From positions 1 to 41,278 of the IMG/VR virus record IMGVR_UViG_3300021960_000176: a stretch of 41,278 nt of DNA. The stretch is one strand, 5' to 3'. This DNA is from a virus. The notes under the pieces are model-generated. The model searched no databases. It had not been told where the DNA came from and saw nothing but the letters and a program-made list of their open reading frames with translations. A program made the translations under genes and the position numbers. Of this stretch, positions 6,258 to 40,717 are shown one piece after another; the stretch's first letter is position 1; every line of letters starts with the position of its first letter.

Positions 6258-6491
6258 ATGCCAAGTGTAACACCAAGAACAAATCCAAAATCAAAATTCG
6301 TTGAACCATTCGACAAGATGCTACGTAGGTGGAAGAAAACCTGTGAACGAGCTGGCATCGTTCAAGAGGTTAGAGATAGAGAATACTATGAGAAACCTGC
6401 AACAAAACGTAATCAGAGAAATCAAGATATTAAAAGACGTAAGAAACTATTAGCAAAACGAGAATCAGTTAAAGGATATCGTAAGAGGTAG
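6258..6491 (+). CDS. rpsU: small ribosomal subunit protein bS21
   Basis: A 77-aa protein that is plainly bS21: [18 protein letters not shown], then [18 protein letters not shown], followed by a very basic tail ending GYRKR. bS21 binds the 30S platform near the anti-Shine-Dalgarno end of 16S rRNA and helps initiation. Phage copies are known in marine viruses, including pelagiphages, and are thought to replace host bS21 and favour viral mRNA. Length is normal (70-80 aa) and all core positions are present. The ribosome site is weak (GAGAAAATT before ATG), which would suit control by the structured leader upstream. The next gene starts 2 nt after its stop. Confidence 0.95.
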
Positions 6492-6493
6492 TC

Positions 6494-6706
6494 ATGAGTG
6501 GTAAAGGTTCAAAACAGAGACCTCGTTCTGTTTCTAAAGACAAATTCGATTCAAACTGGGATTCTATTTTCAGCAAGAAAATAAAGATTAAAGTTCGTAA
6601 GGAAACTCCTAAACACGGACTGACCAGTGTTCATCCTGATAAAACGAAATATAATCGTAGTAAGATTAATCGTGAGGTTATGCAGGAACAGCTGCAACTC
6701 GACTAG
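6494..6706 (+). CDS. small basic protein, MSGKGSxxRP family
   Basis: A 70-aa protein beginning MSGKGSKQRP and containing FDSNWDSIFSKK. This signature (SGKGS-x-x-RP ... NWD-x-IF) marks a widespread small phage protein family without known function. The rest is Lys/Arg-rich, fitting nucleic acid or ribosome binding, and it is co-transcribed with S21. Its last 29 nt overlap the convergent tape measure gene (6678-6706), so the two 3' ends share DNA on opposite strands. Confidence 0.7.
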   Translation: MSGKGSKQRPRSVSKDKFDSNWDSIFSKKIKIKVRKETPKHGLTSVHPDKTKYNRSKINREVMQEQLQLD

Positions 6707-8957
6707 CAGTTGGGTCAGAATTTCTAGTTCTACCTGTTGATGCAGTCACCGTTGAACTATTACTTACATTGTTAGTATTCTGTTGGACGGTGTTTACTTG
6801 CATGTTAACATCTGATTGTGCATCTGCAACATCTTGAGTTGCTTGACCAATCTCACCACCACGACCTGAAGCTTCTTGAACTTCAACTGGGGTAGGATTC
6901 ACGCCAGGTGCAGTTTCCATAGGGTTAATAGCAGCTCTGATTTGATCAACATCAACGTTACCCATATCTCTTTCAAACTGACCCTGAAAACCAACCTGAC
7001 GAGATATTCTAAACAAGTCAACACCAGCATCTGCGTTTGCTGACATCTCATCATATCTTGCATTGATGGCAGCTTGCATTTCTGCATTATCACCTACTCT
7101 TAGTAGTTCTTCTTGTCTCTTAATATTAATTTGATCTTTAAGAAGTGATCTATTTTCATTTTCTTTTGCAAGTCTTTGGTTATATTCTTCGTCAGTCTCA
7201 GAACCTATTCCCATGAAACCTTCTCTTCTACCACCTAACTCTCGTCTGTTTCCTTCTCGTCTTCGTCTTTCCCATTCAGCTTGTCTTTCTGCTTGAGATA
7301 ACTCACGAGCATTTTGTTCAGAGCCAGGGTCATCAGTGTTTTGCATGTCAGGTGCAGAGTCTTCTCCACCACCCCAACCTAACCAGTTCAATACCCAATC
7401 AGGTAGAACCTTCTTAGCAAAGTCTACTAGGATTTGACCGATGTCAACACCAAATACATTCTTAAAGAAGTCTCCAATTGCCGTGAAAGGTGCTTTAATT
7501 AAATCCCATAGTCCACCAAGGATATCCTTTAGACCACCGAACATTCTATCAAAGTCACCAGTAAACAGTCCTGCAAAGAAGTCATAGAACCCACCAAATA
7601 TTCTACCTATTGCTTCTATGATATTCATAAAGTATGATTTGACGGTTTCAAACAGACCACTGAATATACCAGTCTTTTCTTCTAACCACATTGCACCTGC
7701 GATTAATGCACCTACGAGTGCTACGATTGCAACACCGATTAAGATATATGGTGCAAGGAACATAAGACCACTCATCAATGCAGTAAATGAAGCTGCAAGG
7801 AAAGAAGCAGCTGCTTTTATCATATTAGCAGCACCTTTTGCTACTGTAGCTGCTCCTTTTTTGATTGCACCACCTGCCTTACCGATCATGTCACCAGTTG
7901 CAGTTGCTAAAGATGATGCCTTATCTTTTACAAAAGACCAACTCTTCTGTATACCTAAAACTGTTGCATCAACACCTTTTGCAACTACCCCACCTATAGC
8001 TGCCATACTACCACCTATTGCATTCATCATTTTCTTACCAAGATCAGGTAGACTTTTTAAACCATTGGTTAGACCATTGATAGCCTTTTCTTTAAAACTA
8101 GATAATCCACTAAAGATATCACCAACTAGGTCTTCATTCTTAAAAAACATTCTACCGAATGCATTTGTCCACTCTACTGCACTATCTAATGGGCCTTGAA
8201 GGTCAACTCCAAATATCTTTTTAAAATCAGTAAAGAATTGTCCGTTGTCTTCTGAAACATCTTTTAAACCTTGTTTTAATATGTCATTATACTCATCACG
8301 AATATTAATTTCTGTTTCGTTCTTATCTACAATAGATTGTTTCTCTTCTTCAATCATCTGATTAAAGATTTCTTTTTGTGCTTGGATATATTTGGTTCTA
8401 TCTTTTTGCTGTTCTATGATTAACTGTTCATACTCATAGATGTCTTTTTTATTTCCACTCTTTCTAACTTCATTGAGCATCCGATTACTATCTTGAAGAC
8501 CATCGTCTAGTTTTTTAAGTTCTTTATCATTTGATAATTGAGTTTGAAGTCTTGCAGCATACGAATCATCAATACCCTGAAGTTTATCATTCATAGCATT
8601 GACTGCTTCTTGAGATTTAATGAATCTATCTAAGTCAAACCCCTCAATCTCGTCAGTAAACTTTTTGAGTTGAGTCATTTGATCAGCTGAAACCTTAGAT
8701 GCATCTTTAGATACTTGACCAATTAGGTTTCCAATCTGAAGGAGTTTTCTAGATTGCAGAGCTCCTGCAAATGTATTTTTACTTGCTTCACGGACATCAA
8801 TAATAGATTTAGCTAGGGGTGCATTACTCTCCTTAACTAGATCAACTAATTCTTTAAAGGCAGGTTTGAGTCCTCTCTTACCTTTCTCTACTTCATCTTT
8901 TAATTGTGACAACTCCTTTTTGAGTTCTTGTGTTGTCTTATTGATGTCGTCAGCCAT
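6678..8957 (-). CDS. 29: tail tape measure protein (gp29-like)
   Basis: A 759-aa protein with tape measure architecture: a charged coiled-coil N-terminal third (KELSQLKDEVEKGK...), a central Gly/Ala-rich hydrophobic part with KKGAATVAKGAANMIKAA and the membrane-like FLAPYILIGVAIVALVGALI (about 400-425), amphipathic GLFxGDFxxMFGGLKDILGG segments, and a Gln/Asn/Ser-rich tail. The tape measure sets tail length and enters the cell envelope at injection. T4 gp29 is 590 aa. Assignment also rests on position: it follows the gp26/gp51 pair, as tape measure genes follow chaperone pairs in most long-tailed phages. Little sequence similarity to T4 gp29 can be judged by eye. Confidence 0.7.
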   Translation of the reverse strand: MADDINKTTQELKKELSQLKDEVEKGKRGLKPAFKELVDLVKESNAPLAKSIIDVREASKNTFAGALQSRKLLQIGNLIGQVSKDASKVSADQMTQLKKFTDEIEGFDLDRFIKSQEAVNAMNDKLQGIDDSYAARLQTQLSNDKELKKLDDGLQDSNRMLNEVRKSGNKKDIYEYEQLIIEQQKDRTKYIQAQKEIFNQMIEEEKQSIVDKNETEINIRDEYNDILKQGLKDVSEDNGQFFTDFKKIFGVDLQGPLDSAVEWTNAFGRMFFKNEDLVGDIFSGLSSFKEKAINGLTNGLKSLPDLGKKMMNAIGGSMAAIGGVVAKGVDATVLGIQKSWSFVKDKASSLATATGDMIGKAGGAIKKGAATVAKGAANMIKAAASFLAASFTALMSGLMFLAPYILIGVAIVALVGALIAGAMWLEEKTGIFSGLFETVKSYFMNIIEAIGRIFGGFYDFFAGLFTGDFDRMFGGLKDILGGLWDLIKAPFTAIGDFFKNVFGVDIGQILVDFAKKVLPDWVLNWLGWGGGEDSAPDMQNTDDPGSEQNARELSQAERQAEWERRRREGNRRELGGRREGFMGIGSETDEEYNQRLAKENENRSLLKDQINIKRQEELLRVGDNAEMQAAINARYDEMSANADAGVDLFRISRQVGFQGQFERDMGNVDVDQIRAAINPMETAPGVNPTPVEVQEASGRGGEIGQATQDVADAQSDVNMQVNTVQQNTNNVSNSSTVTASTGRTRNSDPTASRVAAVPA

Positions 8958-8967
8958 TGACTATTTC

Positions 8968-9354
8968 CTATTGTTTTCCGAATGCCTTTCCAGCTTCTGC
9001 AATACCGAATGAACCTAAAGTAACTACCACGAATGAAGTGTAGATAGTGTCTGAGATTACTAAATCCTGTCCAACATAACCTGTTACTAGGTCTGCTATA
9101 CCGAAAACGACCATCATTAAAAATGAGATAAAACCAATAATGGACTTCTCATTGATGTGATTATCGTCCATAAACAAAGACCCTAGTGTGAACTTCTCTT
9201 TAGGTTTTGCTTCCATAGCTGCAACCTTTAAGTCTTTGGTTAGTTGTTCCATCTCTTTAATCTTGTCGTTTGCATCGTCTAACTTTAACATTAGATCGGT
9301 GTATTTCTCAAGATCGATATTTACTTCGTTCCTGTTGTCTGTTTGTTCTGTCAT
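8968..9354 (-). CDS. small membrane protein, coiled coil plus two TM segments
   Basis: A 128-aa protein. ATG 9354 was chosen because GAGGA lies just upstream on the minus strand; an in-frame TTG at 9369 would include that site. The N-terminal half (KYTDLMLKLDDANDKIKEMEQ) is a coiled coil. The C-terminal half has two membrane spans, IIGFISFLMMVVFGIADLV and TIYTSFVVVTLGSFGIAEAG. Size and topology would fit a holin or a tail-associated membrane protein, but no family is recognised. It lies between the chaperone pair and the tape measure gene. Confidence 0.6.
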   Translation of the reverse strand: MTEQTDNRNEVNIDLEKYTDLMLKLDDANDKIKEMEQLTKDLKVAAMEAKPKEKFTLGSLFMDDNHINEKSIIGFISFLMMVVFGIADLVTGYVGQDLVISDTIYTSFVVVTLGSFGIAEAGKAFGKQ

Positions 9355-9397: not shown

Positions 9398-9601
9398 TTA
9401 TCTTCTACTTTTTGCTCGGGCCTCTCTTGCCTTTTGCCTTTCCTTTTCTTCTTCTAGATACTGTAAAAGAAGATTAATATAAATCTCTCTTTCCCATGGT
9501 ATCATCTCGTCTAGTTCAGTTAATGAATACTTGTGGTGTTGCATCAACTGAAAGTTTGTGTTATAATAATTAAACACACTCTCATGAGAAAGAGCTACTA
9601 A
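9398..9601 (-). CDS. 51: gp51-like C-terminal frame, probably expressed by -1 frameshift from gp26
   Basis: A 67-codon frame (LVALSHESVFNYY ... HHKYSLTELDEMIPWEREIY ... AKSRR) in the -1 frame relative to gp26. The 'HHKYS...MIPWEREIYI' core resembles T4-like gp51 hub assembly proteins and the T-part of lambda gpGT-type tail chaperones. The first in-frame ATG (MQHHKYS, 20 codons in) has no Shine-Dalgarno site, and protein-like sequence extends upstream of it to the slippery run. A fusion of gp26 (234 aa) and these 67 residues gives 301 aa. An independent start at an internal ATG or GTG cannot be excluded. Confidence 0.65.
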   Translation of the reverse strand, partial: LVALSHESVFNYYNTNFQLMQHHKYSLTELDEMIPWEREIYINLLLQYLEEEKERQKAREARAKSRR

Positions 9602-10302
9602 AAAAAACTTTGTAGACCCTCTAAGTGACGTGTCTGTTCTGTTGAACACTTATTACACTTGAAACTCACATCTTTAGTAAGTTTGGGTGCTTGGTCAAAC
9701 CATTCCCCTAGTAGTGTAATTTGTCCATAAGTCAAACTGTCAACAAACTCATTGATGTCAGAAGAAGATATCTCAGATGTGTTATACACATTTTCTCCAT
9801 CAAAGATACTGACTATTGATCTCTTTAGAATCTCAATAACCTGATCTTCTTGTGCGAGCTTATCAACTCCGTCCATGTTTTTAACTTTTAGAAGTTGAAG
9901 TGTAACACCAACGTCATCGTTAATCATAACGGTGTTGTTTTCGGGCATCTTTCCACTCACTTCGATTTCATCTAAGTTGATTTCAGCATCACCCGTTCCA
10001 CGACACTCTGTATCACTACAAATTAATTTTAAGTTTACTGTTTCTCCTACAGAAACACTTCTAATCTTGAGGAACAACCACTCTAAATCAATCATAGGTA
10101 GTTCATCAGGATTAATTTTTTCGAAGGTAACTGCTCGAACTAAATCCTTTGTTGCAGAAATTTGTTCTTTGACACTTTTACCTTCTCTTGCAAGAACTAA
10201 TGTCTTTTGTTCTTTAACCAAAAAGGGACGGAATTCAACTTCTCGTCCATCACTTGGTAGCACCGTAGTATACTTTGGTGCCGATTGGATTGGTAATCCC
10301 AT
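9598..10302 (-). CDS. 26: baseplate hub assembly protein gp26
   Basis: A 234-aa protein resembling T4 gp26 and its cyanophage forms: a SDGREVEFRPFLVKEQKTLVLA start, DLVRAVTFEKINPDELPMIDLEWLFLKIR and a C-terminal HLEGLQSFF. Two cysteine pairs (C-x5-C in SDTECR near residue 95, and CNKC near 217) look like a split zinc-binding site. gp26 acts in hub/tail initiation in T4; by position it is the counterpart of lambda gpG, the short form of the tail assembly chaperone. GGAG lies upstream of the ATG. It ends in the 8-T slippery run and tandem TAG codons. Confidence 0.82.
   Translation of the reverse strand: MGLPIQSAPKYTTVLPSDGREVEFRPFLVKEQKTLVLAREGKSVKEQISATKDLVRAVTFEKINPDELPMIDLEWLFLKIRSVSVGETVNLKLICSDTECRGTGDAEINLDEIEVSGKMPENNTVMINDDVGVTLQLLKVKNMDGVDKLAQEDQVIEILKRSIVSIFDGENVYNTSEISSSDINEFVDSLTYGQITLLGEWFDQAPKLTKDVSFKCNKCSTEQTRHLEGLQSFF
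9601..9607 (-). other. slippery heptamer T TTT TTT for -1 frameshift
   Basis: On the minus strand the gp26 frame ends AGT TTT TTT TAG TAG. The run of eight T (9600-9607) places an ideal X XXY YYZ heptamer (T TTT TTT) directly before two tandem stops. A -1 slip reads TTA GTA GCT into the gp51-like frame. A small hairpin (CTCT ... AGAG) can form a few nt downstream. Confidence 0.65.
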
Positions 10303-10326: not shown

Positions 10327-11043
10327 TTAGTCTCCTAGACCAAGACCTCGTGATAAATTTGAACCTCTAGCAAGTGCAGTGTCAAAACTTTCTAATCGAT
10401 TGAGCATTGACCCTGCTTTCTTGTTAAACCTAGAAGCTACTTTAAGACCATCTAGTGCAATATCTAGATAACGTCTTCCCTTATTTAGTGCAGACAGTTC
10501 AGGAGTTTGTGCATACTCGGTTGAGAATGTTCTAAACGACCATGTCACACTAAATTTTAAAATTGAATCTGTTTCTGTCATGTTCAAATTCATCGGGGCA
10601 TATGACAGAGGAAATACATCGTAGAGTTTATACTTCATTGCAAACTTATCATCTTTACGATATTGATAGATTTCCATCTCACCCATGTATTCATCAGGAT
10701 ACATGAAGATAGGATGAATTGCACTACCTTCTACATTCCGACCTTGTGCAGTAAAGATTTGTGTTTGCCATGCTTCTATGATAAAACGATCATAGAATGT
10801 TGAGTCACAACGAAACTCCATAGTTGTCTGTTGTGAATCTTGGTCTATATTAAAGACCTTATTTTCAAGAGGGCCATAGGTTGAATGTGTTTCAGATGTA
10901 AGTTGTCTGCCAGGCAAAACGGCAGTCTCCACTCTCCATCCTTCTAACTTTAGTCCCAATTTGGGACAGTGTATGTTCACACTAAACTGATTTGATCTTG
11001 CACCAACATCAAAGTTAGCTTTAAATTTATCTATTTGTGCCAT
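10327..11043 (-). CDS. 54: tail-tube-fold baseplate protein, gp54-like tube initiator
   Basis: A 238-aa protein with a tail tube fold pattern: GARSNQFSVNIHCP, VETAVLPGRQLTSETHSTYG, QQTTMEFRCDSTFYDRFIIEAW, YDVFPLSYAPMNLNMTETD and ILKFSVTWSFRTF. T4 gp54 contains the comparable 'VKMPENRLSYETDWNYNSP ... VISFRMDS ... NYRAMQDWV'. gp54 sits on the hub and starts tube polymerisation. The major tube protein gp19 shares this fold, so gp19 is the alternative. The baseplate gene context and extra Ala/Ser-rich C-terminus favour gp54. It is coupled to the upstream gene by a one-base overlap. Confidence 0.65.
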   Translation of the reverse strand: MAQIDKFKANFDVGARSNQFSVNIHCPKLGLKLEGWRVETAVLPGRQLTSETHSTYGPLENKVFNIDQDSQQTTMEFRCDSTFYDRFIIEAWQTQIFTAQGRNVEGSAIHPIFMYPDEYMGEMEIYQYRKDDKFAMKYKLYDVFPLSYAPMNLNMTETDSILKFSVTWSFRTFSTEYAQTPELSALNKGRRYLDIALDGLKVASRFNKKAGSMLNRLESFDTALARGSNLSRGLGLGD

Positions 11044-39976: not shown

Positions 39977-40717
39977 ATGGCAACTAAAAAAAACTTAATA
40001 GCTGAGATTGGATTAGAAACACACGGTAGTTTAACCGTAGATGGTAACGCTACCATTACGGGTAATCTAACTGTCAACGGAACAAGCAACACAGTTAACT
40101 CTACAACCACATCGGTTGAGGATAACCTCATTGAACTTGCAAGTAATAATACCAGTTCTGATACACTTGACATTGGTATCTATGGTAACTATGATGATGG
40201 ACTAGGAGATGGAGTATCAGAGTATACTGGGTTCTTTAGAGATGCAAGTGACTCTACTTGGAAACTATTTGATGGTTTAGAAGTCGAGCCTGGTTCTACA
40301 GTTAATCTATCAGGGGCAGGATATGCAAAAGCAGCTTTAGAAGTTGGTGACTTATCATGCACAACTATTACTGCAACAGATTCACTTACTATCGATAGTT
40401 TAGTCGTAGATTCATCCAGTGGTTCAACACTTACCACTGCAAGTGAAACAGATTTAGATACATGGGCAACTTCTACATATAGAAGTGCAAAATATGTTCT
40501 TCAGGCAACTGAAGGAACTAAATATCATACAACAGAAGTGATCGTTATACATGATGGAACAGATGCATACTTCACTCAATTTGGTGAGATTATAACAAGC
40601 TCCTCACTCTTTGAAGTTTCCACAGCAGTTGAAAGTGGAAATGTGAAGTTAAAGGTAACACCTGCATCTAGTAGTTCAACAGTTTTTAAATGGTCACGAA
40701 CTTTAATTAAAACTTAA
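39977..40717 (+). CDS. tail fibre-type protein with two shared modules
   Basis: A 246-aa protein. The N-terminal half (GSLTVDGNATITGNLTVNGT, SNTVNSTTTSVEDNLIELAS, YTGFFRDASDSTWKLFDGLE) repeats the module found inside the 523-aa protein. The C-terminal 85 residues (YRSAKYVLQATEGTKYHTTE, VIVIHDGTDAYFTQFGEIIT, ESGNVKLKVTPASSSSTVFK) repeat the domain of the two preceding genes. It shows module shuffling in this cluster. Confidence 0.7.
   Translation: MATKKNLIAEIGLETHGSLTVDGNATITGNLTVNGTSNTVNSTTTSVEDNLIELASNNTSSDTLDIGIYGNYDDGLGDGVSEYTGFFRDASDSTWKLFDGLEVEPGSTVNLSGAGYAKAALEVGDLSCTTITATDSLTIDSLVVDSSSGSTLTTASETDLDTWATSTYRSAKYVLQATEGTKYHTTEVIVIHDGTDAYFTQFGEIITSSSLFEVSTAVESGNVKLKVTPASSSSTVFKWSRTLIKT

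Follow-up and report, generated by a model that had tools for sequence, protein, structure and literature searches.

The question raised by this locus is whether gp26 and gp51, the neighbouring tail genes of a T4-like virus, are here two genes or a single gene read in two frames. The window, by which we mean the whole stretch of DNA analysed (41,278 nucleotides of the IMG/VR record IMGVR_UViG_3300021960_000176), contains on its minus strand a gp26 frame that ends TTA GAG GGT CTA CAA AGT TTT TTT TAG TAG, with a run of exactly 8 Ts (9600-9607). Direct reading of the letters bears out the preliminary description, which had placed a T TTT TTT heptamer right before two tandem stops, had described the -1 frame as open for 67 codons of gp51-like sequence, and had put the first ATG of that frame 20 codons in. 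The -1 frame runs from TTA (9599-9601) to TAA (9398-9400), and the predicted fusion of gp26 and its extension is 301 aa long (Table 1). Runs of eight Ts are under-represented in the window (2 found versus 8.6 expected from shuffles), and among the 49 ORFs of at least 80 aa only gp26 has a homopolymeric heptamer within 31 nt of its end. The sole other T8 run is found at 39986-39993, also on the minus strand.

Table 1. Coordinates of the features discussed, as positions in the window
Feature	Positions	Strand	Details and support
Phage-encoded ribosomal protein bS21	6258-6488	+	PF01165 3.6e-13; converges on tape measure gene
Tape measure protein gene	6678-8957	-	phrog_1272 6.1e-10
Small gene between chaperone and tape measure genes	8968-9354	-	
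-1 frame extension, gp51-like	9398-9601	-	67 codons + stop; phrog_634 1.7e-27
First in-frame ATG of the -1 frame	9542-9544	-	extension residue 20; not a likely start
Predicted downstream hairpin	9549-9584	-	starts 16 nt after heptamer; -8.7 kcal/mol; covariation in the window's clade
Tandem TAG TAG zero-frame stops	9595-9600	-	stops 9598-9600 and 9595-9597; read directly
Slippery heptamer T TTT TTT	9601-9607	-	read directly; T TTT TTN in 100/100 representatives
GAGGG, SD-like element	9617-9621	-	ends 9 nt before heptamer; conservation in relatives exceeds that in synonymous shuffles
gp26 ORF, short tail assembly chaperone form (TAC-N)	9598-10302	-	234 aa; PF12322 2.6e-50, phrog_150 1.2e-53
Tail tube protein gene, directly upstream of gp26	10327-11043	-	phrog_45 2.8e-27

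Both parts of the locus are homologous to T4 gp26/gp51 (PF12322, phrog_150 and phrog_634). The gene order in the window is tail tube - chaperone - (one small gene) - tape measure, the same as in HTVC008M, and the tape measure gene is indeed found where it had been said to follow after one small gene. A single PF12322 ORF is present in the 41-kb record, which is a fragment, such that a second gene could lie elsewhere; within this fragment the two-gene gp26/gp51 arrangement of the T-even phages was not found. Family searches with the small gene between the chaperone and tape measure genes gave no significant match. By eye its C-terminal stretches are hydrophobic and lend it a holin-like look, and HTVC008M also has a small gene in this slot.

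From IMG/VR and the genomes of isolates we gathered 185 loci with gp26 junctions, among which 158 are unique, and reduced these to 108 cluster representatives, of which the 100 outside the T-even-type phages and the Ackermannviridae-type Vibrio phages form the set considered below; the collections may omit the records closest to the window. All 100 representatives carry T TTT TTN, 7, 10 or 13 nt upstream of the gp26 stop. T is invariably the last base of the codon preceding the Phe codons, and TTT is invariably the first of the Phe codons; in the rest of gp26 TTC encodes a third of the Phe residues. The two wobble positions of the heptamer are the only ones among 68 testable codon-alignment columns to have 100% T, the median being 74%. 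The heptamer is intact in 28 of 28 lineages when clusters of less than 50% identity are compared, with a log10 P of about -18 under the codon usage of each locus, a figure that takes the lineages as independent and is hence overstated; P values are indicative because the relatives share ancestry. Just six Ts (TTTTTTC/A/G) are present in 73 of the 100 lineages with the same phase kept, and the reading phase is therefore independent of a long homopolymer. The same phase is seen in sequenced isolates such as S-PM2 and the Pelagibacter phage HTVC008M, the junction of which carries GAGGGTTTACAAAGTTTTTTTTAA. A scan of 2.9 million viral contigs (IMG/VR) with the bare DNA pattern GAGGGNNNACAAAGTTTTTTT recovered 85 stretches, and a gp51-like -1 frame follows in all 80 of those analysed. 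Scans with gp26 of K567 and RL38J1 recovered zero and one locus, respectively. The preliminary description had proposed conservation of the T run among marine T4-like phages as a check, and in marine as well as other T4-like relatives the run is kept in the same place and phase. It had also regarded relatives that combine a disrupted run with a separate, well-placed start of the second gene as grounds for refutation; those without the run prove to be either T-even phages, with a gene pair of in-frame fused gp51 and separate gp26, or Ackermannviridae.

Two further signals accompany the heptamer. The first is an upstream SD-like element, which in the window lies within the 9-14 nt published as the spacing of -1 stimulators (PMC5009743), as in dnaX. 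Among the relatives, complementarity to the anti-Shine-Dalgarno sequence has a sharp peak in 8-nt segments starting 13-18 nt upstream of the heptamer, with a mean of -6.2 versus a background of +0.2 kcal/mol, and at the best position 82% of lineages are at or below -4. This signal is stronger than in 200 of 200 synonymous shuffles, the ratio of GAG to GAA at the site is 42:22 versus 633:1697 elsewhere (Fisher 3e-10), and of the 89 lineages with an exact SD match, 76 have it ending 8-10 nt upstream of the heptamer. The element is equally strong in lineages with and without a gp51 start, and is therefore not simply the gp51 ribosome-binding site. The second signal is downstream structure: in both main groups the RNA just 3' of the heptamer is more stable than its synonymous versions (0/60 shuffles as stable). 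In lineages whose heptamer is 10 nt from the stop, the median distance from the heptamer to the start of the best hairpin is 7 nt, and the cyanophage groups have long stems such as AAGTATGGCTC...GAGTCATACTT. In the window's clade compensatory changes are concentrated at two pairs (17 double-change cells, 0/500 shuffles); the role of the hairpin in the window itself is uncertain because its 16 nt spacer exceeds the usual stimulator distance. The S-PM2 group displays weak covariation, with double changes at one pair (2/500 shuffles), and in the GTATGGCTC group the hairpin core never varies, hence covariation is uninformative. The hairpins are thus lineage-specific and differ between groups, and because of this variation RNAalifold did not find a single consensus structure of the downstream region across all lineages. 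We also considered a UCAY-loop hairpin fixed across all lineages and dropped it, as only two inner pairs exceeded permutation.

The conserved heptamer and the selection on the -1 frame, described below, support the earlier suggestion that gp26/gp51 are a frameshifting tail chaperone pair, and a programmed -1 frameshift very probably yields short and long tail assembly chaperones from what would in this phage be one gene. We infer the slippage, its rate and the chaperone roles along the following lines. Most ribosomes would read to the gp26 stop and produce the 234-aa short chaperone; a fraction, with their tRNAs on TTT TTT, would slip back one base at T TTT TTT and continue with TTA GTA GCT... 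to give the 301-aa long form. Slippage is probably aided by pairing of GAGGG, 9 nt upstream, with the 16S anti-Shine-Dalgarno, and in many lineages probably also by the downstream hairpin. By analogy with lambda gpG/gpGT, the short form may coat the tape measure protein and the extension may recruit tail tube subunits, in which case the ratio set by slippage would matter for tail assembly.

Of the alternatives, the one that survives best, though it is decidedly unlikely, is termination-reinitiation (translational coupling) near the gp26 stop, which would produce a separate gp51 and no fusion. An ATG is indeed found near the gp26 stop in 34 of the 100 lineages, in some overlapping it as TAATG or TGATG, the Ackermannviridae retain the gene pair without the heptamer, and the window has an in-frame GTG at extension codon 9, which is missing from the preliminary description, as is a GTG at 9649 that opens an 83-aa -1 ORF overlapping gp26. 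However: 1) no ATG, GTG or TTG occurs near the junction in 43 of the 100 lineages, and the heptamer is invariant where the start codons are not. 2) The SD-like element keeps a constant distance to the heptamer, is too distant from the ATGs for ordinary initiation and is as strong where no start exists. 3) The hairpin of several cyanophages encloses the ATG. 4) The gp51 of T-even phages is a one-frame fusion.

Slippage of the polymerase rather than the ribosome on the T run could likewise join the frames, given that the 8 Ts of the window come near the 9 at which bacterial polymerases slip (PMC5009743), but this has a very small probability, with just six Ts in 73 of the 100 lineages and a conserved pattern which is that of a tRNA re-pairing heptamer with the SD and hairpin signals of ribosomal frameshifting. 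Even less credible, to the point of being nearly dismissible, is a start of gp51 at the internal ATG, as the annotation of HTVC008M has it. An ATG is present in this column in 80 of the 100 lineages and absent in the other 20, but the preceding extension codons 1-18 are under purifying selection across relatives: their pN/pS is 0.26 when read in the -1 frame but exceeds 1.2 in the two alternative frames, which are moreover interrupted by stops. Coding upstream of the internal ATG, which the preliminary description had singled out for comparison, is thus conserved. The junction of the joined protein falls in one alignment column in 100 of 100 lineages. Finally, despite the 8-T homopolymer in a metagenome-derived virus record, the notion that a sequencing or assembly indel split one gene appears already refuted for practical purposes: the phase is shared by 100 independent lineages, the majority of which have shorter runs, and by isolates such as HTVC008M and S-PM2. 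An error making the run 7 or 9 T seems very unlikely because the 73 relatives with six Ts keep the phase.

A frameshifted chaperone gene is also consistent with the predicted fold. In an AlphaFold model of the window gp26 (pLDDT 88), residues 1-85 match the HK97 tail assembly chaperone gp13 (2ob9_A) with a Z of 7.4, the next row being 2.9, and the match covers 83 of 107 residues, pointing to an HK97-like N-terminal fold. This match is moderate, because Z is below 8 and a plain Foldseek search of the model against the PDB gave nothing significant; the sequence profile search against solved structures gave no match. Together with the tail tube - chaperone - tape measure order, the fold match supports by analogy a G/GT role for gp26 and its extension.

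The T-even phages shed further light on this relationship. When a profile of the predicted gp26+extension proteins is aligned to gp51 of T4, JS98 and 44RR, the alignment continues through the junction, and T4 gp26 matches the N part of the profile only, ending where the short form ends. The T-even genes 26 and 51, which are two adjacent divergent genes, therefore encode the short and the long forms, and gp51, judging by these alignments, is the same fusion encoded in one frame. T-even gene 26 has no slippery site. A model of T-even gp51 has the same order of secondary structure elements as the window gp26, plus C-terminal helices; compared with structures it gave no chaperone match, by which the fold is not excluded. 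Two members of the Straboviridae, Aeromonas phage CC2 and Vibrio phage V05, still have the frameshift form, and hence the two-gene form probably arose inside this family. In the Ackermannviridae and Vibrio phage K475 (L184, L189, L193-L196) the gp26/gp51 pair lacks the canonical heptamer and has NTT TTY in the homologous place (GCT TTC in phage YC), several of these having an overlapping TAATG.

Frameshifting tail chaperones as such are already known, lambda G/GT being the classic case; Xu, Hendrix and Duda are said to have described lambda gpG/gpGT and homologous -1 frameshift tail assembly chaperones in 2004. The window locus resembles gpG/gpGT in its position between the tail tube and tape measure genes, in the slippery site at the 3' end of the short form, in a -1 extension without its own start and, as predicted here, in short and long products; it differs in belonging to PF12322, in its T TTT TTN site and in the additional SD-like element and hairpins. 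With E. coli dnaX it shares a heptamer with an internal SD in the 9-14 nt range (PMC5009743), and a 3' hairpin is predicted as well, but the window heptamer is T-type (U), frameshifting here gives the longer product, and the hairpin lies 16 nt off in the window's clade (median 7 nt in the other group). For the tail assembly chaperone of Vandenendeviridae (PMC12846349) a -1 frameshift is similarly predicted from a conserved T-rich motif and an open -1 frame, though the motif there is GTTTTT. The T4 gp26 and gp51 proteins are homologous to those of the window, gp26 being the short form and gp51 the short form plus extension; the T-even phages have two divergent genes without a slippery site where the window has one gene and a frameshift.

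A standard review holds that the tail-chaperone frameshift is conserved in long-tailed phages 'except T4' (PMC5009743). Contrary to this view, the frameshift is indicated through most of the sampled T4-like superfamily, with carriers of the site among cyanophages, pelagiphage HTVC008M and Rhizobium, Stenotrophomonas, Aeromonas (CC2) and Vibrio phages, and in light of this breadth the T-even two-gene arrangement looks like a derived exception. The novelty that the preliminary description implied for gp26/gp51 as chaperones is weaker than stated: according to papers that cite them, Vladimirov, Gautam and Davidson (2022) identified the T4 pair as tail assembly chaperones, their two-gene solution is noted in PMC10274946, and PMC12846349 credits them with polyT signals in T4-like phages. 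Within the literature searched, the helper signals, the breadth and the adjacent phage bS21 gene appear to be new. The strong SD-like element and the hairpins provide a testable model of how slip efficiency is set in marine phages.

Of the 25 close relatives whose flanks are long enough, 21 have a bS21 homologue near the tail module, compared with 0 of 13 relatives in the other group. bS21 mediates mRNA-16S pairing (PMC6375957). The position of its gene beside the tail module hints at a link to the SD-like element. The phage bS21 might alter SD recognition on host ribosomes and thereby tune SD-stimulated frameshifting and the short/long ratio, a role we regard as improbable; lineages in which no neighbouring bS21 was found have the SD-like element just the same.

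None of the records inspected has a joined gp26/gp51 feature at this locus; gp51 is either overlooked or given as a gene of its own, in some cases with an improbable start. It is unannotated in ACG-2014b, CC2 and Atu_ph04 (loci L087, L182 and L183), and in HTVC008M it is annotated from the internal ATG about 50 nt downstream (L192:4193-4330), which is probably the wrong start.
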